Below, in pieces: positions 27,343 through 59,286 of a stretch of 64,000 bases of DNA; positions within the stretch are counted from its first letter, which is position 1; every line of letters starts with the position of its first letter. Both the position numbers and the translations under genes were made by a program. Location of the stretch: the NCBI GenBank assembly GCA_038744685.1, contig JBCDMB010000002.1:62001-126000 (forward strand). Reading direction: 5' to 3'. The notes below the pieces were generated by a model. That model was not told where the DNA came from, ran no database searches, and saw nothing but the letters and a program-made list of their open reading frames with translations. This DNA is from Verrucomicrobiota bacterium. GTDB taxonomy: Bacteria; Verrucomicrobiota; Verrucomicrobiia; Opitutales; Puniceicoccaceae.

Positions 27343-28173
27343 ATGAAACCGATCGTCTACTTACTTTCTGTTTTAGTCCTCCCGACCCTTTCGCCGGCAG
27401 TCGATTCGCTCTATCCGCTGGATAACGCCTTCAACGGGCGCGACAGCTCAGCTTCAGAGAGAGCTGCTCTCTTAAAGGAACTGGGATATCCGGGGACCGT
27501 AACCGAGCAAAAGACCTACACGAAAGAATGGGGTGAGGCTTTGGCCGATGCCGGACTCGAGGTCGAGGCGACCTACATTATCTTGAGGCCAACGAAAAAG
27601 GGAATTCCCGTTCCGAAAGACGTTGCGACTCATCTTGCGGAATTCGAAGGCACCGAGACTGACGTCTGGGTGACGGTGGGGAAGCCACGGAAATTCGACG
27701 TGAGCGAAGAGCAGGTTGTGGAAGCCATTAGCGAAGTGGCTGATATTGCCCGGGCAAACGGTCTTAGGACCGTAGTCTATCCACACTACAGTTTTGTTAC
27801 CGATACAAATGCTAGAGTGCTGCAAATTGCCCAAGCCATTGACCGAGAAGATCTTGGAGTCGCCTTCAGCCTTTGCCACTTTCTGAAACAGGAGGATCCC
27901 TCGGAGCTCGAAGTTACCCTCGAAGCGGCAAAGCAACATCTCATGGCAGTTCAAATCAACGGTGCCGACGAAAACGGCAAAGAAACCGGCGATTGGTCCC
28001 GATTGATCCTTCCACTCGGCGAGGGCGATTTCGACGTCATGAGAGTCCTCGAAACGCTCGAATCTATCGGGTATGATGGCCCAATTACGCTCCAATGCTT
28101 CGGAATTCAGTCACCTCCAGAGGACCACCTCGCAAAGAGTATGGCAGAGTGGAATACAATGTTAGCAGAATAA
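27343..28173 (+). CDS. Exported sugar phosphate isomerase/epimerase-like TIM barrel
   Basis: A 276-residue protein of the xylose isomerase-like (AP endonuclease 2) TIM-barrel superfamily, with an N-terminal signal peptide (YLLSVLVLPTLSPA). Segments such as GLRTVVYPHYS, LGVAFSLCHFLKQEDP and GYDGPITLQCFG are the conserved strands with metal-binding residues (His, His, Glu/Gln). Members normally isomerise or epimerise keto sugars or act as dehydratases; an exported form is common in PVC bacteria and less so elsewhere. It sits between the sulfatase and an exported oxidoreductase, so the three probably work together on released sugar outside the cytoplasm. Substrate unknown. Confidence 0.82.
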   Translation: MKPIVYLLSVLVLPTLSPAVDSLYPLDNAFNGRDSSASERAALLKELGYPGTVTEQKTYTKEWGEALADAGLEVEATYIILRPTKKGIPVPKDVATHLAEFEGTETDVWVTVGKPRKFDVSEEQVVEAISEVADIARANGLRTVVYPHYSFVTDTNARVLQIAQAIDREDLGVAFSLCHFLKQEDPSELEVTLEAAKQHLMAVQINGADENGKETGDWSRLILPLGEGDFDVMRVLETLESIGYDGPITLQCFGIQSPPEDHLAKSMAEWNTMLAE

Positions 28174-28182
28174 CTCTTAATC

Positions 28183-29475
28183 ATGATGAATCGTAGACAT
28201 TTTCTCAAGGGCACCACTCTCGCGGCGGCTCCACTTTTCTTACCTCGTAGCCTTTTTGGATCCAGTTCTCCGTCTAATACGATCAATCTTGGGTTTATCG
28301 GAATGGGAGGTCAGGGTCAGGGCCGAAACCTCCGCGGATTTATCAGCAACGAGAACGTCCGGGTTATCGCGGTCTGCGACTGCCATCTGAAACGCGCGAG
28401 ACAGGCAAAACGTGCGGTCGATAAGACTTATCAAAACAAAGAGTGTGCCCTGTATCAGGATTTTCGGGATTTGCTTGCCAGAGAGGATATCGATGCCGTT
28501 GTGATTTCGACCCCTGACCAGTGGCATGTCCCGATGTCGCTGATGGCCCTTGAAGCCGGAAAGCATGTATTTTGCGAAAAGCCAACTCTTACCATTGTTG
28601 AGGGTCGGGATCTTGTTGGCGCCTTTGCTGCAAGTGACCGAGTTTTCCAATGGGGAATAGAAGACCGCACGATGACCAAATACTACCTTCTTGCCGGCTG
28701 GGCCCGAAGTGGACTCATCGGGGACATACACGAAGTCAACTGCACTCTGCCAAAGCACGATCCTTTCTCCCGCGAAGAACCTGTAGCTCCGCCCAAGGAG
28801 CTTGACTGGAACCTCTGGCTTGGACCGGCACCATTTGTCGAATACACGCCCAGCGCGTTGGACATGTTTCACTGGCGTTTGAACAGCGATTACGGTGGAG
28901 GGATGCTTTCGGATTGGGGTACTCACCTTTGCGACACGGCTCAGGTCGGTCTTGGAGTCGATGAAACAGGACCGGTTGAAGCCTTCGGAACCAGCCGTGA
29001 ACTGGATTCTTCCGCTTGGAACACGGATACTCCCATCGATTTTGAACTCACCCTCAAGTATGAAAACGGTGCCGAGCTCCACGTTGCTGACAACGCTACC
29101 TACAAGACTCTTCTTCTTGAATTCAAAGGCTCAAATGGCTGGGTCCGCTGCACCGGTTGGGATGGAAAGCTTGAAGCCAGCGATCCAACAATCCTTCGAA
29201 CACGAAACTTCGGTCCAGAGGCAAATTATTGGCCCAAACCGAAAGTTGAACACGAAGACTTTATCGACGCGATTGTAGCCGGTCATCGTGAAACCGCTTA
29301 CGACCCGGAAGCCGGCCACCGCCTGTGCACCGCTTTGCATGTGGGCCACATTGCACTGCGGGAAGGGCATCGTGTCGGATGGGACCCTCGGGAAGAATCG
29401 TTTACGACCGACCGGACCTCAAACGAGGCGAGCAAAGTTTACACGCGAGAAGATCGCGATTGGGAAAACGCGTAA
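28183..29475 (+). CDS. Tat-exported Gfo/Idh/MocA family oxidoreductase
   Basis: A 430-residue protein with a twin-arginine leader (NRRHFLKGTTLAAAPLFL, residues 3-20) and a second ATG at 28186 as an alternative start. Rossmann motif LGFIGMGGQGQGRN, second strand VIAVCDC, and the catalytic motif HVFCEKPTLT with Lys in EKP. Substrate-domain signature DYGGGMLSDWGTHLCDTAQ has the conserved Asp and His. Export suggests oxidation of a free sugar in the periplasm with a tightly bound cofactor, as in glucose-fructose oxidoreductase. Last gene of the 15-kb operon; an inverted-repeat element follows directly. Confidence 0.9.
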   Translation: MMNRRHFLKGTTLAAAPLFLPRSLFGSSSPSNTINLGFIGMGGQGQGRNLRGFISNENVRVIAVCDCHLKRARQAKRAVDKTYQNKECALYQDFRDLLAREDIDAVVISTPDQWHVPMSLMALEAGKHVFCEKPTLTIVEGRDLVGAFAASDRVFQWGIEDRTMTKYYLLAGWARSGLIGDIHEVNCTLPKHDPFSREEPVAPPKELDWNLWLGPAPFVEYTPSALDMFHWRLNSDYGGGMLSDWGTHLCDTAQVGLGVDETGPVEAFGTSRELDSSAWNTDTPIDFELTLKYENGAELHVADNATYKTLLLEFKGSNGWVRCTGWDGKLEASDPTILRTRNFGPEANYWPKPKVEHEDFIDAIVAGHRETAYDPEAGHRLCTALHVGHIALREGHRVGWDPREESFTTDRTSNEASKVYTREDRDWENA

Positions 29476-32943: not shown

Positions 32944-34479
32944 CTATTTCTCATCGTAAGCCGGAGGGCGCTCCTCCACAAAAGGCCCCCACGCCATAAA
33001 CGTATCGTATTTGTCCATCTGCTGGTACTCTTGCGGATCGTAATTGGGATTCTCCTTCGGAAACCGAGCGCCCACCTCTTCAAGGTACACCATCATCTGG
33101 TCAAAAAGCCTTTGATGTGTTTCAGGATATTTCCTCGCGACGTTGACGGATTCTCCTGGATCCTCTCTCAGATTGAAGAGCATTGGAACATCGGGGCGTT
33201 CGTAGAAATGCATGACCTTTGCGTTCCCAGCGATGATTGCAGAATGAGGAATCTCCGACCGATAGTGAGGAAGATGGAAGAAAAGTGGACGGTTATAAAA
33301 AGCAGCGTCGGGTTTCTCCCCAGCCAAAAACCGAGCCAAGCTGACTCCATCAATGTCTTCAAGCTCATCAGGATCGCCACCAGCCCATTCAAAAAAAGTC
33401 GGAAGAAAATCGTAGTTGATCACATTAGCAGAGAAGACCGAACCCGGCTCGATCCCAGGTCCTTTGACAATCATCGGCACCCGAATACCTCCTTCCCAGA
33501 GCCACCACTTACTCCCGTGCAGGGGTTGAACTTTCCCCTCAGTCAAAAGTAACTCCTTGTGGCGATAGCCATTATCAGAGACGAGGATCACATAGGTATT
33601 CTCTTCGATCCCGAGGTCGGAAATCGCCTCCAATACCATGCCAATTGCACGGTCGAGATCATCTCCCATAGCAAACCAATTGGCCGGATCACTTTTTCGG
33701 CTCAGTTCGTCGGGCGAAGTTCCCTTCTCCTCATAGAATTCTAAGACGGTCGGATGGTTCACGTATTTCTCCCGGGCCTGCTGGGTGGATTCCCTCCCCT
33801 CATGCATCGCGTAGTGAGAGATCTGCAAATAAAACGGATTCCCAGCTTCTACCTGCTCTTCCATGAAGCCGATAGCCTTATCAGTCATACTGAACATTAA
33901 CTTTGGATCCGTTAAATCGTCAGGCATAGTTCTGGCCTTGCCGACAGTATTTCCGGGTGTGTTGGTCGTATCTCCGTCATGCAACACATAACCCGCATCA
34001 CCGGGATCGCTATACATGTGCCACTTTCCCACATGGGCACTTACATACCCAAGGGGAGCGAGTGCTTTCGGAATGGTGACTGCATCGGCCTTCAGCGATG
34101 GCTCTGCGACTGTAGGAATCACTGGCATCCGAAGATATTGTGGCCGCATATCGTAATAATCATGCTTAGTCCTTCCTAGAACCAGCGTTAAGCCATGCCG
34201 TGGAACAGACTGCCCAGTCTGCACCGACACCCGTGCCGGAGCACACTGGTGTGAACCGTAAGCGTTGGTAAATTTCATTCCGTCCTCTGCAAGCCTTTCA
34301 AGGTTCGGCATTTCCAAAATGGGCATGGCAGAGTTTTCCATGGAATCATTCATTTTCACAGGCGTCCCGTTCCAAGCCCAATCATCCAGATAGATCAGGA
34401 CAATATTCGGGCGATCCGCACTGGAAGCCGTTGAAGTGAGGAATATCCCTAGAAAGAGCAGAAATGGTAACATTTTCAT
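32944..34479 (-). CDS. Secreted sulfatase, CAPAR type
   Basis: 511 residues from ATG 34479 (the frame extends 6 bases further to a TTG). Signal peptide [19 protein letters not shown]. Motifs: IYLDDWAW (metal Asp pair), [14 protein letters not shown] with catalytic Cys79, [18 protein letters not shown] for the second metal site, and GGIRVPMIV. It belongs to the same branch as the C-terminal half of the giant protein at 55747-59286, with matching [17 protein letters not shown] and [14 protein letters not shown] segments. A predicted operator lies about 40 bases upstream. Substrate unknown; a role in removing sulfate from the same polymer as the fusion enzyme is likely. Confidence 0.94.
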
Positions 34480-34516
34480 AACCAATCGAGAAAAACAGAG
34501 AGAATCAAAGGAAAGA

Positions 34517-34639: not shown

Positions 34640-37600
34640 TTAAATTCCGCCAATCCACTTACTCTCTAAGTACAGGCATTCAGAAATCAGGCTCTCAATC
34701 GACATTCCTTCCTTAAGGATACGGACTTCACCAATCTGTCCGTCAATGCGTTGACCTCCGTTTCCACTTCCACCCGCGTAGATTTCTTTCGACCCTGTAA
34801 AATCTGCGGCCGGAGTATTACCAGATATCGTTGTCCCGGCTTTGCTTTCAAAAAGGGTCCAATCGCCCGTTGATTTGTCGTAACTAAAGCCAAGTATAAT
34901 CGTATCGCCCCCCGTGATCGTCACTCCGGTGTTCTGATAGAGAGCTCCTCCGATGTAGACTTCCGGGTTTCCGCCGCTACTGATACGAATCCCAAAGCCA
35001 CTGCTTGTGCTACCCGACGTGGCTACTACAGGATTTTTCGCACTCGTGATATTGTCGAAGCGGATGGCACATAAAGTGGTAAACCCAGAATTGTTCTCTG
35101 CTCCACCACCAGCTGAGAAATTTAGGATGTTGCCTGCCTCGGAAACACTGATCAAACGGAAGCGATTCGATCCATCGAATTCGATCATGTCTAGGCTAGT
35201 CGGAGATTGGATCACCGAAGGATAGGTTTGCGTCTCAGACGATTGCGGGACCGCATCAAATCCAAAGCCAGAAACATCGTTCCACTGAGTGACCCGATCG
35301 TTTGAATCGACCAGTACATTAACCGCTACACTCGCGTCGTAGCTGTAATGGGCACCAACCTTTAGAACTGAAGCCGAGTTGTCTCCCTCTTCAAGCGAGG
35401 TAACTGGGTTGACATAGTATTCGTATAATGCCCCATCAATGAATCCAGTGTCATCAAAACCGAGGGGTAGCATGGTTGCGCCACTCGTAAGCTCCGTAAA
35501 GCCGCTCTCGTTTGCGGCACGACGGTAGACTTTGAACCCAAATAAATCAATGTTGGGTGTTCCAAACCATTGCAACAAGTCAACGCCACTCGAGTAGTTT
35601 GTCAGGAAAGTCCAGTCAGGCAGCACGGCTCCAAGCGCACTCGGAAGTGTCTGATTCTTGGTCGAAGAATCGACTGACTCATTGCCCGCGGCATCGACGG
35701 CTGTTACGACGTAGCTGTATTCAACGCCAGGCCACGCGGTATCGTCAAAATACTGGCCATAGAGCCGCGTATGAAGATCTTTATTCAACTTCACCGCATC
35801 CAACCTTGTTTCAACTGCAGATGCCCATCGATAGATATTGTAACCAATAAACGGTTCATTGTCCGCTGCGTTTGGCTGAAAGCGGATCTTGATGCCGAAA
35901 TCACCATTCGCAATGGTCGCCTTGATGTTAGTAGGAGCAAAAGGAGCAATACTGTCCACAACGGGGCTAGCATCTTCGACCAATACATTATCGAGATAGA
36001 TATCCCCATTTCCGCTTCCTCCTCCGCGACTCCATCTCACTCGAACCTGAGTCAGATTGGTTGAACCAGCAGGAACATTGAACTCAGTCTCTAGACTTTG
36101 GAACTTATAGTTGTAGAGATCCGGGTTCATCGTGATGAAAGGTCCCCAGATTTGGGTAGTTGAATCAAAGGTCAGGATGATTCGCCCGGAGATCGTTCCG
36201 TGCCCGGTGTTGTCCTGATCGCTGAAGCCGGTCCGAATGGATGTTTTCAGACGAGTTTTTCCATTTAAAGGAATCGTCACACCTGCCTGCGTATCCCGAC
36301 TCTGCCCTGGGTTCAATCTGCGGCTTGCGACATATGCTCCTCCTCCGTTACGGGGAATCGTGCTGCTGACCAAGTTAACGTAGTTTGAATCCTTAATCAT
36401 CTCCCGACTGAGTCCGCTAAAGTCACTGCTCGTCTCGAAATTCTGCAGATAGAGATTTCGAGGCACAATTAGGTCATCCCAATGTGGAACACCAGCAGCA
36501 TCCCAGTCTGCACCATTCGGGTTGTCTTGAACCTTCGGAAAAGCCCTACCCAGCCAGCGAGCGAAATCTAGCAGCAGAGCTTCATTGACTCCGGCATCTT
36601 GAAGAAGATTCTTCTGCAGAAGACGATAGGTCGCCTCAGAGAAAATCTCATCCGGTAACAGGAAGATCTTCGCGGTGCTTTGCACATCGGATGGCTTGTC
36701 CCAGGGTGCCGGGATGTAGTCCATGTGTTCAATGATGTTACGGTCATTTTTATAGACGCCGTTTTTCGGAGGTGGGTCACGGGGGATCGTATTTACATCC
36801 TCGGACTCGTAGATGTAGAGCCACTCGTGCAAGTATTCCTCGAAGAGTCTACGCCACAAATCAGGGGCGTATTTGTCAGCAGACAAAAAGAGTCCGCGGT
36901 TGGCGGTTTCGTCAGAGTAAAAGAAATTCGGCGCGAGGGTGCGTTGAGAAAAGCCCAGTTTACTAAAAAGGCTTTCGGTGCCTGAGGGATTTCCGGGAAC
37001 CCAGGGCAAGGCCGGTTTCCCGGTATAACGCGATTGCATCATATTGATTTGGTAGGCTGCTCGCGTGATAAAGAAGTCATGCTTAGTCACATTGTAGGCA
37101 TCAATCATGTGGTTCTTGACGTAGCCCCAATCCACATAGCTATTCATTCCTGCTGGTCGCCGGGGACCCGAATTGAGGAGTACTTCGAGAAGATACCATT
37201 GATTGGATTCCTGTTTACCCGTCCGGTAGAGTTGTTCCTCGAAATTACTCCAGTTTTTACTAATGATGTGGGCAGCATGAGCCCAGACCCACTGACGTGT
37301 GCCCTGTGCGGGTAGTGACAAGGGATCCGGATCGTATTCGGGTGTGTAATCCGGCGCAAAAACTCCGGCTGCATCGGGTTGCACATCCTCCAGCTCAAAT
37401 CGGCGGACCAGGTAAAGGCCTTTTACGGCACGCCACTTAACGATTGATTTGCGCATCTCGTCCCTACTGATGTGTGGGAAAATAATCGGAGCCGAGGTGG
37501 TTCCATAGAGTTCATCGTCGCCATTATTGAACTCAGCTTGGCTCATCCTCATGTCGCCATACCATTTGTCTTCGATATCAGACATGTATGCACTGAATCT

Positions 37601-38872
37601 CGACCAGAGTGTGCCATCTGAAACATAGGATGCGACTCCATTGGTAATCAGGTCGGTAAGTAGCCGCTCATAGATGATTTGGGGCCCTTCATTGACTTTC
37701 GTTCCCGCAAGATAGTCTGGACGTTCTGGCTGGATCGCATCGATCATAAGGTCGTCCGGCCATATATCCACTGGCGCGTGGTCAGGTAGCCAGGCATTCC
37801 AGTCGGGTAGCTGAATCGTCATACGGATGTCGCGCATGCTGAGATTTTTTGTGTAGTCCATGATCTCTGCTACCGAACCAAAGTCAGTGCCCTCGGGGAG
37901 AAGTTCGCTAATGATCTCTCCGTCCGTTTCCGCGACAGCATCAAGCCCCTGGCCAGCCAACCATGAGGCCGCCTTTTGGTCTTTTGTGAGTTGAGAATCG
38001 CCCTGCTGAGGGTCGGTGTCCGGACCAGGCTGAAAGGGTGGATCCCAAGGACGACCAGGGGCATTCATCCCACCAGGCAGGTTCAAGTTGAGCGAACGAA
38101 TATACGCTGCTATCTGATTCCCCTGATGTTCACTCAAACCGTGAAATTGTGAACGGCTGACTATCGATTCATTGGAAAAATTGAAATACCTCAGATCGCT
38201 ACCGTCGTCAAAGTGACAGGCTGCACAGGAAGCTTTGATCGAACGCTGGGCGACGATGTTATCAAGAAGAATTCCATCCGAATCCCAGAGTATCCTACCT
38301 GCGTCTATACTAGCTGCATCTTGGTATCCTACCGGCGCAGTCCAAGTCGAAGGATCTTCATCCGAAAAGCTGGTGGAAACCGCCGAAACGTTGCTGGCAT
38401 CAACAAAATCAAGGTCCAAGACACGAATCGTTGTACTGCGTCCATCCGTGCCGTTGACTCGAATACGCACGTAATTCTCACCACCCTGCACAATATCAGC
38501 TGGATCAATATCCACATAAAAGCGAATTGTTGAGTTGATACCGCCAATCCCGTCCTGTTTCAGTTCGAAATCAGGAAACGAGACCTCAGGAGAATTGTTA
38601 TAAATCGTGATCCAATCGCCACTGTTGACTTGCACAGAGACCTGTCCTCCAAAACGGAGATTATGGACTCGCAAATAAAGGTCTTCCGCTGTTACCGCCG
38701 AAGTCAGATTTACCGTCACCGTTTCGATTTGGGGTGTAATATCCCAGCTGGTCACGCGGACGGGGAATTGTAGGCCGAAGGATTGATGCGCTAGGAAGAC
38801 TAACGAGAGACTTGAACTGGCGATTTGAGTGAATGTAAGACAATACTTTTTGAAGAACTTTAGGGGTGTCAT
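34640..38872 (-). CDS. Large secreted haem c-, Fn3- and LamG-containing protein
   Basis: A 1410-residue exported protein. Signal peptide near residues 15-33; a beta-rich domain to about 165; then a c-type haem site CAACH at 216-220, with GGMNAPGRPWDPP further on providing a candidate methionine ligand; a long middle region (about 300-950) of unknown fold rich in Trp, Tyr and Asp; a fibronectin type III module (APTNIKATIANGDFG...VVTAVDAAGNES); and a C-terminal LamG/concanavalin-like module (about 1180-1410, VTQWNDVSGFGFDA, then IGEVRILKEG). The last module resembles the LamG region in the giant sulfatase at 55747. The haem suggests a redox activity, for example oxidative attack on a polysaccharide, with LamG and Fn3 for binding; this is inference. 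Not a sulfatase. Confidence 0.85.
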   Translation of the reverse strand: MTPLKFFKKYCLTFTQIASSSLSLVFLAHQSFGLQFPVRVTSWDITPQIETVTVNLTSAVTAEDLYLRVHNLRFGGQVSVQVNSGDWITIYNNSPEVSFPDFELKQDGIGGINSTIRFYVDIDPADIVQGGENYVRIRVNGTDGRSTTIRVLDLDFVDASNVSAVSTSFSDEDPSTWTAPVGYQDAASIDAGRILWDSDGILLDNIVAQRSIKASCAACHFDDGSDLRYFNFSNESIVSRSQFHGLSEHQGNQIAAYIRSLNLNLPGGMNAPGRPWDPPFQPGPDTDPQQGDSQLTKDQKAASWLAGQGLDAVAETDGEIISELLPEGTDFGSVAEIMDYTKNLSMRDIRMTIQLPDWNAWLPDHAPVDIWPDDLMIDAIQPERPDYLAGTKVNEGPQIIYERLLTDLITNGVASYVSDGTLWSRFSAYMSDIEDKWYGDMRMSQAEFNNGDDELYGTTSAPIIFPHISRDEMRKSIVKWRAVKGLYLVRRFELEDVQPDAAGVFAPDYTPEYDPDPLSLPAQGTRQWVWAHAAHIISKNWSNFEEQLYRTGKQESNQWYLLEVLLNSGPRRPAGMNSYVDWGYVKNHMIDAYNVTKHDFFITRAAYQINMMQSRYTGKPALPWVPGNPSGTESLFSKLGFSQRTLAPNFFYSDETANRGLFLSADKYAPDLWRRLFEEYLHEWLYIYESEDVNTIPRDPPPKNGVYKNDRNIIEHMDYIPAPWDKPSDVQSTAKIFLLPDEIFSEATYRLLQKNLLQDAGVNEALLLDFARWLGRAFPKVQDNPNGADWDAAGVPHWDDLIVPRNLYLQNFETSSDFSGLSREMIKDSNYVNLVSSTIPRNGGGAYVASRRLNPGQSRDTQAGVTIPLNGKTRLKTSIRTGFSDQDNTGHGTISGRIILTFDSTTQIWGPFITMNPDLYNYKFQSLETEFNVPAGSTNLTQVRVRWSRGGGSGNGDIYLDNVLVEDASPVVDSIAPFAPTNIKATIANGDFGIKIRFQPNAADNEPFIGYNIYRWASAVETRLDAVKLNKDLHTRLYGQYFDDTAWPGVEYSYVVTAVDAAGNESVDSSTKNQTLPSALGAVLPDWTFLTNYSSGVDLLQWFGTPNIDLFGFKVYRRAANESGFTELTSGATMLPLGFDDTGFIDGALYEYYVNPVTSLEEGDNSASVLKVGAHYSYDASVAVNVLVDSNDRVTQWNDVSGFGFDAVPQSSETQTYPSVIQSPTSLDMIEFDGSNRFRLISVSEAGNILNFSAGGGAENNSGFTTLCAIRFDNITSAKNPVVATSGSTSSGFGIRISSGGNPEVYIGGALYQNTGVTITGGDTIILGFSYDKSTGDWTLFESKAGTTISGNTPAADFTGSKEIYAGGSGNGGQRIDGQIGEVRILKEGMSIESLISECLYLESKWIGGI

Positions 38873-39340: not shown

Positions 39341-40765
39341 CTATCTCTTGTCCCTAGGCGTGGAAATTACCGAACCTAATGGAGGCTTTATAGATCCGAT
39401 CTCCCGCTGGCTACTCTCCAGCTCAGCCATAAACGACTCCATAATCTTCGACAATTCCTGCACCTTCTCAGGATACTCTTTGGACAGATCAGTGGTTTCT
39501 CCCGGATCATCAGCCAGGTTGAACAAACTTCCCGCAGGAGCAGCGACCCTATCCTGCTTTCCGCGTCCTGGCCTCACCCCGCCTCCAGGCTTTTGTCGCG
39601 CGACGAGTAACTTCCACTCATTGTGCCGGATCGTTGAACCCGGAACAATAAAGGTTTCATGGATTGGCGAAGAGACCTCACCCCCTTGCAGATAGGGCGT
39701 AATGTTGCGTCCGTCCAGCACCCGATCAGTCGGCAACTCTACCCCAGCCAGTGCCGAAAAGGTGGGTAACATATCGATGATTCCGACAATTTCACCATTC
39801 TCTGAACCGGACGGTATCACCCTAGGCCATCGCATGATGCACGGAACGCGAATGCCACCCTCAAAATTCGTCCACTTGCCGTCACGCAAAGGACCGGCAC
39901 TTCCATACCCATCGATATTCAACTGGGGACCGTTGTCAGAGGCATACACTACCAAGGTATTTTCAGTAAGATCCAGCTCGTCGAGGATCTTCAAGATTTC
40001 ACCCACCTGCCAATCGATCTCCTGCACCACATCTCCGTAGGTTCCCTGTTTCGATGAGCCTTTGAAGCGCTCACTCGGAAGCCATTTTACGTGAGGTAGT
40101 GGTGAAGCGTAGTAGAGAAAAAAGGGATGATCCTTATTCTCTCTGATGAATCGGATTCCCTCCTCCAATAGCTTCGGCGAATGGATGCCGTCTGTTTTAC
40201 TTCCAGCAGTCTCCTCAAAAGTCTCATTTCGAAAGATGCCGGTACCCGACTCGGTTTCCATGAATCCGTAAAAGAAATCAAAGCCATGGTGAACCGGATT
40301 ACTTTCAGGCCATTCACCCAAATGCCACTTTCCAATTATGCCAGTGGCGTAGCCTGCTTCCTTCAGTTGTTCGGCAACAGCAATTTCGTCCGGATGGATT
40401 CCGACCAGACTCCGACGGTAGATCACTTTTGAATACCCTGCCCGATCGGCATGTGATCCGGTCATAAAGGCCAAACGAGTAGGCGAGCACCGATTGTGGA
40501 CGTAAAAGTCTGTAAATTTCATGCCCTCCTCTCTGAGTCGATCAATCGCTGGAGTGGCAATATCAACCGAGCCATACGACCCGAGATCACCGTATCCTTG
40601 GTCATCTGTCAGAATGAAAACGATATTAGGCCTCAGCGCCCCGGTCTCATGGTCATCTATTTGACCGTTCGTTTCGCCTGCAAACGCATAATGGGAGCCT
40701 CCCAAAAAAAAGAAGGCACAGAGTAAAGCCTTTCGAAGACTAGCGTGGGCTATTTTCCTTTTCAT
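39341..40765 (-). CDS. Secreted arylsulfatase-type sulfatase, CSPTR type
   Basis: 474 residues from ATG 40765 (an in-frame TTG 15 bases earlier is less likely). Signal peptide with core LLCAFFFLGGSHYAFA. Motifs: ILTDDQGYGDLGSYG, NRCSPTRLAFMTG with catalytic Cys93, GKWHLGEW, YASDNGPQLN and GGIRVPCIMRWP. These fit the arylsulfatase A-like branch with a typical PLLR-type end (SLFNLADDPGETTDLSKEYP). Complete active site, so probably an active exported sulfatase. Upstream of it, 40766-41280 has no well-supported gene. Confidence 0.94.
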   Translation of the reverse strand: MKRKIAHASLRKALLCAFFFLGGSHYAFAGETNGQIDDHETGALRPNIVFILTDDQGYGDLGSYGSVDIATPAIDRLREEGMKFTDFYVHNRCSPTRLAFMTGSHADRAGYSKVIYRRSLVGIHPDEIAVAEQLKEAGYATGIIGKWHLGEWPESNPVHHGFDFFYGFMETESGTGIFRNETFEETAGSKTDGIHSPKLLEEGIRFIRENKDHPFFLYYASPLPHVKWLPSERFKGSSKQGTYGDVVQEIDWQVGEILKILDELDLTENTLVVYASDNGPQLNIDGYGSAGPLRDGKWTNFEGGIRVPCIMRWPRVIPSGSENGEIVGIIDMLPTFSALAGVELPTDRVLDGRNITPYLQGGEVSSPIHETFIVPGSTIRHNEWKLLVARQKPGGGVRPGRGKQDRVAAPAGSLFNLADDPGETTDLSKEYPEKVQELSKIMESFMAELESSQREIGSIKPPLGSVISTPRDKR

Positions 40766-40903
40766 CTTTCGTTTTCCCAAAATGGATGCTCTGCCTCTTC
40801 TTTTAGAGTCTCCAATTCCTATTTTAGTCCTTTGATTTTACTGCATAAATCTCCAAGTTGCTGGATCTTTTGACCCGCGGTAAAGGGGAAACAGAAATAG
40901 TCA

Positions 40904-55746: not shown

Positions 55747-58700
55747 TTACCTACTGACCTCGAGTCGCACGAAGACTCTACTTTGGTCTGGTAGCACAGC
55801 TTCAACCCAATCAAAATCACTACCGCTACGACTAATCTGCAGATTTTCGTCAGTCAATTGGGTCCAATTCGTTAAATCAACGGACGTCCAAACGGTGTAG
55901 TCGAGTCCCCCCTCCTGCGCTCGCTGAGCGAAACTGAACAGCCACTCACCATCCCTGATTTCAAAAATTGGCGCACCTTCACCGGGAGATTCTGCGAAGG
56001 TAGGATTACGACCCAGTGCGTATTCGAGCAGGTTGAACACTCCATCCAAGTCGTAGTCCTCCTCGTCACCTCCTAGATTTACCCCCCAAGATTCAAACCA
56101 GTCGTCCACGGGTGAGCTCCCACTGCCGCGACTCCCTTCAAATGGTGGAAATTTGTCTTTGTCACTGTTACTCGAAAAACTCGCTCCACCATCCGCCAGA
56201 AATGCCTGTTCGTTATTCAGCGGACGCCACGCACTCACGCTGGACAGATAGCTGTCGAGATCTGCCCACAAGAGACTTGCCGTTTCATTGTCACCTGGAC
56301 TCGTGTTGATGTTGTTAAACTCGCCGGGATCCTTGGAAAGATCGAAGAGCATATTCGGGTTCTCCATCGAAATGTCTGTCCGAATCGTCCCGTCCCAGCT
56401 GTGTGCCAGTTTATACTTGCCCTTCACGATAGCAGACATCGGCATCGAACTCCGGTAGTGCGGGTAATGGAAGTAGAGAGAGCGATCCAAAAATGCGTCC
56501 CAGGGGGTCTCACCCTCCAGCAAGCCTTCCAAACTTACCCCATCGATATTCGCCAAATCTTGAGGGTCGCCTCCAGCCCAATCATAAAAGGTGGGGAGCA
56601 GGTCATAAGTCACTACATTGGCGGTTGAGATCTGACCACCAGGAATTCCCGGCCCGGTAATCGACATCGGGATGCGGAGGCCGCCCTGCCAGAGGAACCA
56701 TTTGTCCCCGTAATGTGGTTGTCCTACCTCGTCGCCGTTGAAACGACGGTATCCATTGTCGGATTTAAAAACAATGTAGGTGTTGTTCAGCATGCCGAGT
56801 GCCTCGATCTCATCCAGAATGCGACCAATACTCTGATCCAGATCATAAAGCATCCCAAAGAAGACCGCGTAATCCCGCTTCCGGTTCAACTGAGTCACAT
56901 CCGTTTCGCCCTTGTTGTTCGCAAGGATATCAGGGTCGTTCTGAAAAAGTGCCCGCGAGGACGGGTAACACTCCCACGGGTTATGAACCGCGTAGTGAGA
57001 AAGCTGGATGTAGACGGGCTTACCGTTTGCAGCGTAGTTATTCAAAAATTCAATTGTCCGGTCGGTGATGCCTTTAATGTCTTTCGGATTTTCGATGTCT
57101 ACCGGAATTTGCTCGTTGTTGGAGTCGTAGGTTTTACCCTCGTCATTATTCGTATCCCCATCTGATTCGATGTAACCTTCGACTGCAGGGTCCGAACTCA
57201 AATGCCATTTCCCGTAGTGGGCACAGTAATACCCCATTGGGCTCAGCGCTTCCGGAATGGTCACCATGGTATCCGGGAATGGTAATTCGATGCCGTTCGG
57301 AATTACCGGGTAATTGCTGAAGGAGTTGCGCGCATCGTACTCCGAGTAGCGGCTACTTCCAGAGAGAAAGACACCGACTCGATTGCGTGCGGTGGTTTGG
57401 CCTGTTTGCAAACTTCCGCGGGTCGGCGTGCACTGCGGTGCGGCTGAATAGGCGTTGCGAAAGAGCATGCCCTCATCCGCCAGTCTCTGCATATTCCAAC
57501 GATAGAGTTGTCCGGGGTTTTCGGGGTCCTCGAGGCGACGCATAATATACTGCGCCGAGTTCAGCATACGATCATCCATCAGCACCGGAGTGTCATACCA
57601 AGCCATGTCATCGCCCAGGATCATGATAATGTTTGGCGGAGAGACCCACCGGTGAAGTAGTGCCTCACGATTCTTCCTAAACAGCCCATCGTCGAGTGCA
57701 GTGTCAAAGATTCGCACCTCGCCGACGATTCCGTTGAGAAATTGACTGCTAACATCAATGCTTCCAAGGGTCACCGCGTTCGCTGTCGAAAAATCCTGCC
57801 TACTCAACGAGCCTGTCACGGAGGCAAAGTTCTTCGTTTCCCACAATTCGTAGGTTTGCGTGTCAGCATTGTAGTTGAGCGCGATCACCACCGTATCACC
57901 GGGCTGAACTCTTTGATCACCGGTGCTTGCTATTTGCTGACCTCCTAAGAATGCCTGAATCTGCCCGCTCGACGTGTAGCCAATTTGTAACCCCGCAATA
58001 CCATTGGTGGAGTTTCCGAGAAGATCGTTGAATCCACCAGAAACCAACTGGTTACACTTGAAGGCGATCAGAACGCAAAATCCGTCAGCACTAGCGGATT
58101 GGTCTAGCCAAGCATCTGATTCTGACGATGAAAATAGCGCCAGACTGTTGCTGACTGAGCCAAACTCAATCCCTGCAAGGCCAGACTCCAAAAAACCCGA
58201 CCCAGTATAAAAGACGCTACCTACGGCCGCCGAAGCGTTGTTCCCGCTCCCCGATTGGTCTGTCCACTGGACAACTGGAGACCCCACCACGCTCGCCGCC
58301 TGACTCGCATCCAACTGTTGGATAGGACCCGGCTCCGCCAACATGGCCGAAACTTCAGTGCTGAGAGCACTTTCGACGCCGTTCAATCCTGTAGCAGTGA
58401 CTGCGTAATAGTAGGTCGTGTTGTTGTCTGCGGTGACATCAAAATACCCACTATTGAACTTCACCGCTAGAACCTCGTCGTCAGTCGTTACCGGAGAGGA
58501 GGTGGAGCGATAGATCGTAAAGAAGTCAAAGGTCTCCGAATTGTTTTCATCCCAGTCGAGCTGAACCTGCCAATCAACAACGGTTGCTCTCAAATTGGAT
58601 GGGGGGCTTGCATTTACCGAAGGAATAACGTCGAAGGTCAAGCTAAGCAACCGGCTACCACCTGTGGTCAGATTATGGACTAGGGCGATTTGGTCACTCG

Positions 58701-59286
58701 GACTGATCGTGATCCCCGCAAACAAATCCGTGCTACTCACCCGCGTTTCGTTCAGGTAGATATCTACGTCGGAAGCAGTATTCGCATCCACTGCCGAAAG
58801 CTCCAAAGAGCTGGCCGCACTCATACCGGAAAGACTGTCAAAAGTAATCAGAATCCCTTCGTTGGTCTGAAGGCTTCCATTACCGGTAGTTACGCCGGCA
58901 CCTGTACTATTCGCTCTGATCTGCGCTGCCGAGCCGCTCGTAAAATCAAGTGGGTCAAAATTGGTATCCAAGCCCTGCAAAGTAATCGTGAAGGCGTCCG
59001 ACGTTTCGTTGGTGAAGGTTCCGCTCAATGCAGGTTGCCCGCCACCCACTACTGTCCCATACGCGGGACTGCCAGCATTGTTAGTTACTTCAATGGCCCA
59101 GGGTCCGCTACCGTCACTGTCTTGTCCATTTGTCCAGTCCAGAGAGACCTGTCCAGATAGCTGCATCACAGCGAACAAGATCGCGAAACCATAAATAAGA
59201 CTCTTGATTTTCGCGGGGAGATAAGCAGGTAAGCCGAAGGTCGAGACCAACCTACACTTGTTCAAACTTCTGCATCGACTGGACAT
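55747..59286 (-). CDS. Giant modular sulfatase: PEP-CTERM-body-like domain + Fn3 + LamG + sulfatase
   Basis: A 1179-residue exported protein. After a long N-terminus with a signal segment (LIYGFAILFAVMQLSG) come residues about 45-225 homologous to the body of the PEP-CTERM protein at 48960-49691 (shared VVGGG, FTN, GAGV and IxF patterns). An Fn3 module follows (about 228-318, DFFTIYRSTSSPVTT, TYYYAVTATG), then a LamG-like region (320-545, VVQWTDQSGSGNN, VGEVRIFD), then the sulfatase domain from 550 (ILGDDMAWYD, QCTPTRGSLQTG with catalytic Cys619, GKWHLSSD, KSDNGYRRF). The tail has a DLDGVFNLLEYALGRNP motif common in PVC surface proteins. The sulfatase part is closest to 32944-34479. Probably a cell-surface enzyme with its own binding modules. 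Confidence 0.9.
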   Translation of the reverse strand: MSSRCRSLNKCRLVSTFGLPAYLPAKIKSLIYGFAILFAVMQLSGQVSLDWTNGQDSDGSGPWAIEVTNNAGSPAYGTVVGGGQPALSGTFTNETSDAFTITLQGLDTNFDPLDFTSGSAAQIRANSTGAGVTTGNGSLQTNEGILITFDSLSGMSAASSLELSAVDANTASDVDIYLNETRVSSTDLFAGITISPSDQIALVHNLTTGGSRLLSLTFDVIPSVNASPPSNLRATVVDWQVQLDWDENNSETFDFFTIYRSTSSPVTTDDEVLAVKFNSGYFDVTADNNTTYYYAVTATGLNGVESALSTEVSAMLAEPGPIQQLDASQAASVVGSPVVQWTDQSGSGNNASAAVGSVFYTGSGFLESGLAGIEFGSVSNSLALFSSSESDAWLDQSASADGFCVLIAFKCNQLVSGGFNDLLGNSTNGIAGLQIGYTSSGQIQAFLGGQQIASTGDQRVQPGDTVVIALNYNADTQTYELWETKNFASVTGSLSRQDFSTANAVTLGSIDVSSQFLNGIVGEVRIFDTALDDGLFRKNREALLHRWVSPPNIIMILGDDMAWYDTPVLMDDRMLNSAQYIMRRLEDPENPGQLYRWNMQRLADEGMLFRNAYSAAPQCTPTRGSLQTGQTTARNRVGVFLSGSSRYSEYDARNSFSNYPVIPNGIELPFPDTMVTIPEALSPMGYYCAHYGKWHLSSDPAVEGYIESDGDTNNDEGKTYDSNNEQIPVDIENPKDIKGITDRTIEFLNNYAANGKPVYIQLSHYAVHNPWECYPSSRALFQNDPDILANNKGETDVTQLNRKRDYAVFFGMLYDLDQSIGRILDEIEALGMLNNTYIVFKSDNGYRRFNGDEVGQPHYGDKWFLWQGGLRIPMSITGPGIPGGQISTANVVTYDLLPTFYDWAGGDPQDLANIDGVSLEGLLEGETPWDAFLDRSLYFHYPHYRSSMPMSAIVKGKYKLAHSWDGTIRTDISMENPNMLFDLSKDPGEFNNINTSPGDNETASLLWADLDSYLSSVSAWRPLNNEQAFLADGGASFSSNSDKDKFPPFEGSRGSGSSPVDDWFESWGVNLGGDEEDYDLDGVFNLLEYALGRNPTFAESPGEGAPIFEIRDGEWLFSFAQRAQEGGLDYTVWTSVDLTNWTQLTDENLQISRSGSDFDWVEAVLPDQSRVFVRLEVSR

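Follow-up and report, generated by a model that had tools for sequence, protein, structure and literature searches.

What a c-type haem motif does in a secreted protein encoded among sulfatase genes is the question raised by a 64,000-nucleotide stretch of DNA, hereafter the window, from a Verrucomicrobiota bacterium of the Puniceicoccaceae (assembly GCA_038744685.1, contig JBCDMB010000002.1, positions 62,001 to 126,000). The protein, designated P0001, is an exported protein of 1410 residues, and its gene sits amid same-strand sulfatases and a GH26 gene. The open reading frame and the CAACH motif at residues 216-220 were found exactly as given in a first-pass annotation made from the sequence alone, although its label "giant" is too strong for a protein of 1410 residues. 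We propose that P0001 is a polysaccharide-anchored, secreted monohaem electron-transfer protein serving the oxidation of glycans by a partner, a reading to which we give about an even chance. Its role is probably that of a redox component in the breakdown of sulfated polysaccharides.

A search with the single protein yielded a relative from Caballeronia with 32% identity over 520 residues, and a second relative was found in another Verrucomicrobiota genome (G249). The alignment of the three sequences was scanned against one genome per species (84,980 species), and 154 stretches encoding a relative were obtained, of which the best 80 were kept. Conservation was counted over the 92 family sequences that reach the haem region, and 78 members were scanned with Pfam. 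The patterns used in the homologue search were the stretches RPWxPPxQ and QLPDWN, and hence the conservation of these two is partly circular; that of the CxxCH and His244 is not, since neither is contained in the patterns.

The CAACH motif is the sole CxxCH in P0001, whereas chance alone would give about 0.0002 such motifs in a protein of this composition. The CxxCH was invariant in all 92 sequences, which cover nine phyla, and the spacing from the motif histidine to His244 was 24 residues in every one of them. Across the same sequences, C216, C219, H220, D226, S233, I237, H244 and R259 did not vary. Exactly one CxxCH was present in 92 of 93 family open reading frames, and the remaining frame ends before the motif. 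Pfam Cytochrom_C (PF00034) was the most frequent match in the family, weak and found in 43 of the 78 members; it scored 12.4 bits on P0001 against a cut-off of 21.3 (E 0.41), and the best member reached E 0.00096. The haem c assignment of the first-pass annotation is supported by the invariant CxxCH and His244 and by this commonest match. The organism's genome also encodes cytochrome c assembly genes and haem-copper oxidases. To judge from these sequence features, a single haem is very probably attached covalently to P0001.

In an AlphaFold model of residues 31-810 (mean predicted local distance difference test score, pLDDT, 85; predicted template modelling score, pTM, 0.89), a helix at 186-197 is followed by the CxxCH, a helix at 234-243, His244 and a helix at 248-260, the numbers of the helices being those of the model plus 30. 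In class I cytochromes, the sixth haem ligand, usually methionine, is located just before the C-terminal helix. No such methionine was found here, and the invariant His244 occupies the equivalent place. By comparison with that class, the haem domain of the model would follow a shortened class I plan with histidine replacing the usual methionine. From its conservation, His244 is the probable sixth ligand, and the ligation is probably bis-histidine.

The haem domain is flanked by two further domains in the modelled core. The region of unfamiliar fold, which the first-pass annotation had placed at residues 300-950, is bounded at about 264-800; the jelly roll at about 35-160 and the bounds of the cytochrome domain (about 166-262) had been missed. 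In the model, the jelly roll resembles domains of the carbohydrate-binding module (CBM) type. VIA-align gave a middling Z of 8.6 with the C-terminal domain of the GH86 agarase 8h97 (root-mean-square deviation, rmsd, 2.9 over 105 residues) and 6.9 with the PL4 rhamnogalacturonan lyase 2xhn, and the CBM-like PF14683 matched the same region of the homologue from G249 (L007) at 6.2e-6, just under the cut-off. Residues about 165-850 of P0001 had no match in Pfam, NCBIfam or PDB sequences, and neither the haem part nor the helical part of the family is represented by an entry in Pfam or NCBIfam. Modelled alone, the helical domain of about 500 residues gave pLDDT 81 and pTM 0.87. PDB fold searches with the whole core matched the jelly roll only; with the helical domain, the best Foldseek E was 1.5 and the best VIA-align Z was 7.4 (rmsd 4.7, 205 residues), none being significant, and these matches were mostly helical-repeat proteins. 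The missing PDB match does not prove that the modelled fold is new. Highly conserved residues of this domain include W361, D369, W559, Y560 and D581, and W276 and Q281 are also invariant or nearly so. His366 (window 37775-37777; WLPxxHPxD) was present in 82 of the 92 members and was replaced by alanine throughout the clade of the window protein (L008-L013, L015) and in L067.

The C-terminal Fn3 and LamG modules of the first-pass annotation gave real though weak matches, at 16.6 bits (979-1065) and 19.7-21.6 bits (1260-1387), respectively, both below the Pfam cut-off. The LamG region recurs among family members, and residues 1166-1389 showed 31% identity (E 6e-12) with a LamG-type module of the sulfatase encoded at 55747-59286 on the minus strand. 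The module lies in a stretch of about 550 residues that extends this sulfatase at its N-terminus. Outside the core, the family carries tails of the type IX secretion system (18), LamG (13), Big_2 (6) and ricin-B lectin (4) modules, as well as malectin, PA14, CBM_4_9 and others. Because of these tails and sugar-binding or surface modules, the family is predicted to be secreted and often glycan-directed. Export, sugar-binding-type modules and a sulfatase neighbourhood, all claimed for P0001 at the outset, were supported. The features of the locus are listed in Table 1.

Table 1. Features of P0001 and of its neighbours, in window coordinates.
Feature	Position	Strand	Basis or remark
Whole gene, 1410-residue exported monohaem c-type protein P0001	34640..38872	-	ATG start, intact open reading frame
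Predicted Sec signal peptide, residues 1-33	38774..38872	-	By reading the sequence
CBM-like jelly-roll domain, residues about 35-160	38393..38770	-	AlphaFold model, VIA-align, PF14683 in homologue L007
Cytochrome-c-like domain, residues about 166-262	38087..38377	-	CxxCH and flanking helices in model; Pfam Cytochrom_C
CAACH haem-attachment motif, residues 216-220	38213..38227	-	92/92 family sequences
His244, candidate distal haem ligand	38141..38143	-	Invariant; 24 residues past motif histidine
RPWDPPFQPGP loop, family signature, residues 274-284	38021..38053	-	Alignment; partly circular (RPWxPPxQ is a search pattern)
Family-specific helical domain, residues about 264-800	36473..38083	-	Model; no significant PDB match
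Fn3 domain, weak, residues 979-1065	35678..35938	-	Pfam, under gathering score
LamG/ConA-like domain, weak, residues 1260-1387	34712..35095	-	Pfam, under cut-off
Flanking sulfatase	32944..34485	-	Same strand as P0001
Flanking sulfatase	39341..40780	-	Same strand as P0001
Exported xylose-isomerase-type TIM barrel; possible pathway partner	27343..28173	+	Homologues adjoin family genes in L017, L062, L064
Exported Gfo/Idh/MocA protein adjoining the TIM barrel; possible pathway partner	28183..29475	+	

The neighbourhoods of the family were then compared. A sulfatase gene was nearby in 7 of 26 Verrucomicrobiota and Bacteroidota loci, against 3.2 expected from genome-wide counts in these sulfatase-dense genomes (P about 0.02), and the linkage is modestly above expectation. 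GH99-like genes were near five family loci. The window genome (3.6 Mb) has at least 59 sulfatase genes, many of them inside the window; at most 59 of the 74 candidates in it were scored. The partnership with exported Gfo/Idh/MocA enzymes suggested by the first-pass annotation turned out to be weak: such genes were nearby in only 2 of about 80 other loci (L015, L064), and no gene recurred as a neighbour throughout the family. Two Bacteroidota, Tamlana (L064) and Polaribacter (L062), have the family gene in an operon, with genes for an SMP-30/SGL-type propeller and for an exported TIM barrel of the xylose-isomerase type directly upstream. A close orthologue of the propeller (at least 56% identity) was found in six genomes; in four of them only a few kb separate it from the family gene, which is far more often than chance would bring about in genomes of 4-6.5 Mb. 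A 3-keto-disaccharide hydrolase (DUF1080) gene stands beside the family member in G249.

Sugar 3-oxidation requires an electron acceptor. In Agrobacterium, 3-keto-glycosides are cleaved by a TIM-barrel enzyme that bears the annotation sugar phosphate isomerase and acts together with a Gfo oxidoreductase (PMC10628242). The 3-keto-glycoside pathway comprises LacABC, DUF1080 hydrolases, the AtOGE TIM barrel and the Gfo oxidoreductase. Some family members adjoin genes for xylose-isomerase-type TIM barrels, DUF1080 (G249) or Gfo/Idh/MocA proteins, whereas no dehydrogenase of the LacA type was found next to the gene, and the association is patchy and unproven. Given the TIM-barrel and Gfo homologues, the Agrobacterium pathway and the hydrolase in G249, a role of the family in 3-keto-glycoside metabolism is conceivable but not shown. 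In the window itself, the pair of TIM-barrel and Gfo/Idh/MocA genes (27343-29475, plus strand) resembles the enzyme set for 3-keto-glycoside cleavage.

Among known proteins, the closest in design are Cbp2D of Cellvibrio japonicus and TERTU_2913/3803 of Teredinibacter (PMC8981238, PMC10916295, PMC12542752), which, like P0001, are large, secreted and multimodular and combine carbohydrate-binding or, in P0001, CBM-like modules with a c-type cytochrome. TERTU_3803 contains an SMP-30-type (pf08450) propeller domain, and here the same family is found as a neighbouring gene. Their X183 domain is small with a His/Met-ligated haem, whereas in P0001 the candidate ligand is histidine and the haem domain leads into a helical domain of about 500 residues. 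The family profile, run on the PDB sequences with E values of up to 10 admitted, had no X183 chain among its matches. The Planctomycete-type PSCyt/PSD proteins have a CxxCH followed by a long helical region, together with CBMs, and occur near sulfatases in Verrucomicrobia (PMC5615132); P0001 has a CxxCH and helical region, CBM-like modules and nearby sulfatases in common with these proteins, whose X132 domain is annotated as DUF1587/PF07626. However, the family had no PSD/PSCyt match in Pfam, and PF07626 is absent from the window genome. A relation to PSCyt/X132 was rejected, since hhalign aligned the CxxCH patch only, over 12-23 columns and with a probability of no more than 27%, while the within-family control reached 100%. 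By sequence, the family is distinct from PSCyt/X132 and appears to be so from the X183 cytochromes of the Cbp2D type.

No description of the family was found in the open-access literature, subscription papers lying outside the search, and we rate P0001 as a protein of a known kind whose family is undescribed. Members occur in Pseudomonadota (mostly Burkholderiaceae, and also Marinicella and Alteromonadaceae), Bacteroidota, Acidobacteriota, Myxococcota, Verrucomicrobiota, Bdellovibrionota, Chloroflexota, Deinococcota and Rhodothermota. The spread is patchy, with only 2 of 388 sampled Verrucomicrobiota genomes, including that of the window, carrying a member; a sensitive profile gave the same two. 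In the tree, P0001 falls beside Pelagicoccus (SH-aLRT 99), and the surrounding clade also contains other Verrucomicrobiota and Marinicella. Passage of the gene from one phylum to another is suggested, though without proof. Paralogues were observed as tandem pairs in Paraburkholderia and Burkholderia (L031, L042) and as three copies in Hymenobacter montanus (L021, L023, L025). Eight IMG/VR contigs (L088-L095) also bear family members and are probably bacterial chromosomal DNA binned as viral.

We infer the following mechanism. The haem would be bound by C216, C219 and H220, with His244 probably as the sixth ligand. The N-terminal jelly roll and the C-terminal Fn3/LamG-type modules would anchor P0001 on an extracellular polysaccharide, which is probably sulfated in view of the module types and the neighbours. 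The helical domain would pack on the cytochrome and may form a docking or substrate site with W276, Q281, W361, D369, W559, Y560 and D581. Electrons may be exchanged with a partner that oxidises the glycan or the sugars released from it, and the partner oxidation would thereby be linked to the aerobic respiratory chain. The SMP-30-like propeller and xylose-isomerase-type TIM barrel that adjoin the gene in some relatives could supply the partner pathway there; together they resemble 3-keto-glycoside cleavage enzymes.

Several observations weigh against this electron-transfer role. A universal gene neighbourhood was looked for across the family loci and no conserved neighbour was found; the excess of sulfatases described above is small, and the propeller orthologue was not found in the window genome. 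Four Acidobacteriota loci (L054, 4117-8009; L053, L068 and L073) have a different pair of neighbours, uncharacterised genes encoding about 160 and 410-550 residues, and the context is accordingly not universal. Those of these neighbours that were scanned had no Pfam match, and in L054 the smaller directly abuts the haem gene. The match of P0001 to the cytochrome c profile is weak (E 0.41), and the invariant residues beyond the haem site could suit an enzyme rather than a carrier. The last point leads to a serious rival, that P0001 acts as a haem enzyme in its own right, a peroxidase or oxygenase that oxidatively attacks a polysaccharide or some other polymer on the model of the di-haem rubber oxygenase RoxA, with a substrate pocket in the helical domain and with His244 catalytic instead of being a fixed ligand. 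The large conserved helical domain, with its many invariant residues outside the haem site, and the sugar-binding modules speak for this possibility, and RoxA/MauG di-haem enzymes resemble P0001 in being secreted proteins with haem c and a core of similar size. However, these enzymes have two haem motifs and the family one, and searches of PDB sequences detected no sequence relation to them; no cytochrome c peroxidase or MauG type was among the Pfam matches listed for the 78 members. Moreover, a histidine at the usual place of the sixth ligand would block access of O2 or peroxide. We give the direct enzyme a lower probability than electron transfer. More doubtful is the claim that the family is an undescribed group of extracellular enzymes, each with one haem and a new helical fold, and that these attack polysaccharides by direct oxidation at the cell surface; if it were true, there would be a route of glycan attack using neither hydrolase, lyase nor copper monooxygenase.

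It is unlikely that P0001 serves chiefly as a surface adhesin or a scaffold for glycan binding, with a haem that is structural, sensory or involved in haem uptake: adhesion-type modules are many and the helical part is very weakly, not significantly, like TPR/SusD-type scaffolds, but the haem site and its ligand spacing are absolutely conserved while the accessory modules vary freely. Direct electron donation to a secreted copper monooxygenase (lytic polysaccharide monooxygenase, LPMO) acting on polysaccharide, as conceived for Cbp2D, would fit the shared design of sugar-binding modules and a c-type cytochrome, and CjX183 can reduce LPMOs (PMC8981238). TtX183 domains, in contrast, failed to feed their LPMO (PMC10916295), and the His/Met ligation of X183 differs from the candidate histidine here. 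We regard this donor role as highly unlikely. An LPMO partner in the window genome was rejected, as AA10 (PF03067), the one family covered by the search in that one genome, is absent. It is barely plausible that CAACH is a metal or disulfide motif. P0001 alone does score weakly on the cytochrome profile, but the full CxxCH and His244 persist in all 92 sequences, and the protein is exported, with cytochrome c-like helices and family-wide Cytochrom_C matches.

Bacterial redox proteins beside glycan hydrolases are poorly understood, and Cbp2D and PSCyt are without settled function. The present family appears independent of both by sequence, spans nine phyla and has a compact, well-defined haem site; its hosts include soil Burkholderiaceae, Acidobacteriota and marine algae degraders. 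In Paraburkholderia, the protein has about 735 residues and comprises the core but lacks most accessory modules (for example L030, 9818-12016), and in this compact form the haem loading, ligation, potential and partner of the family would be directly testable.

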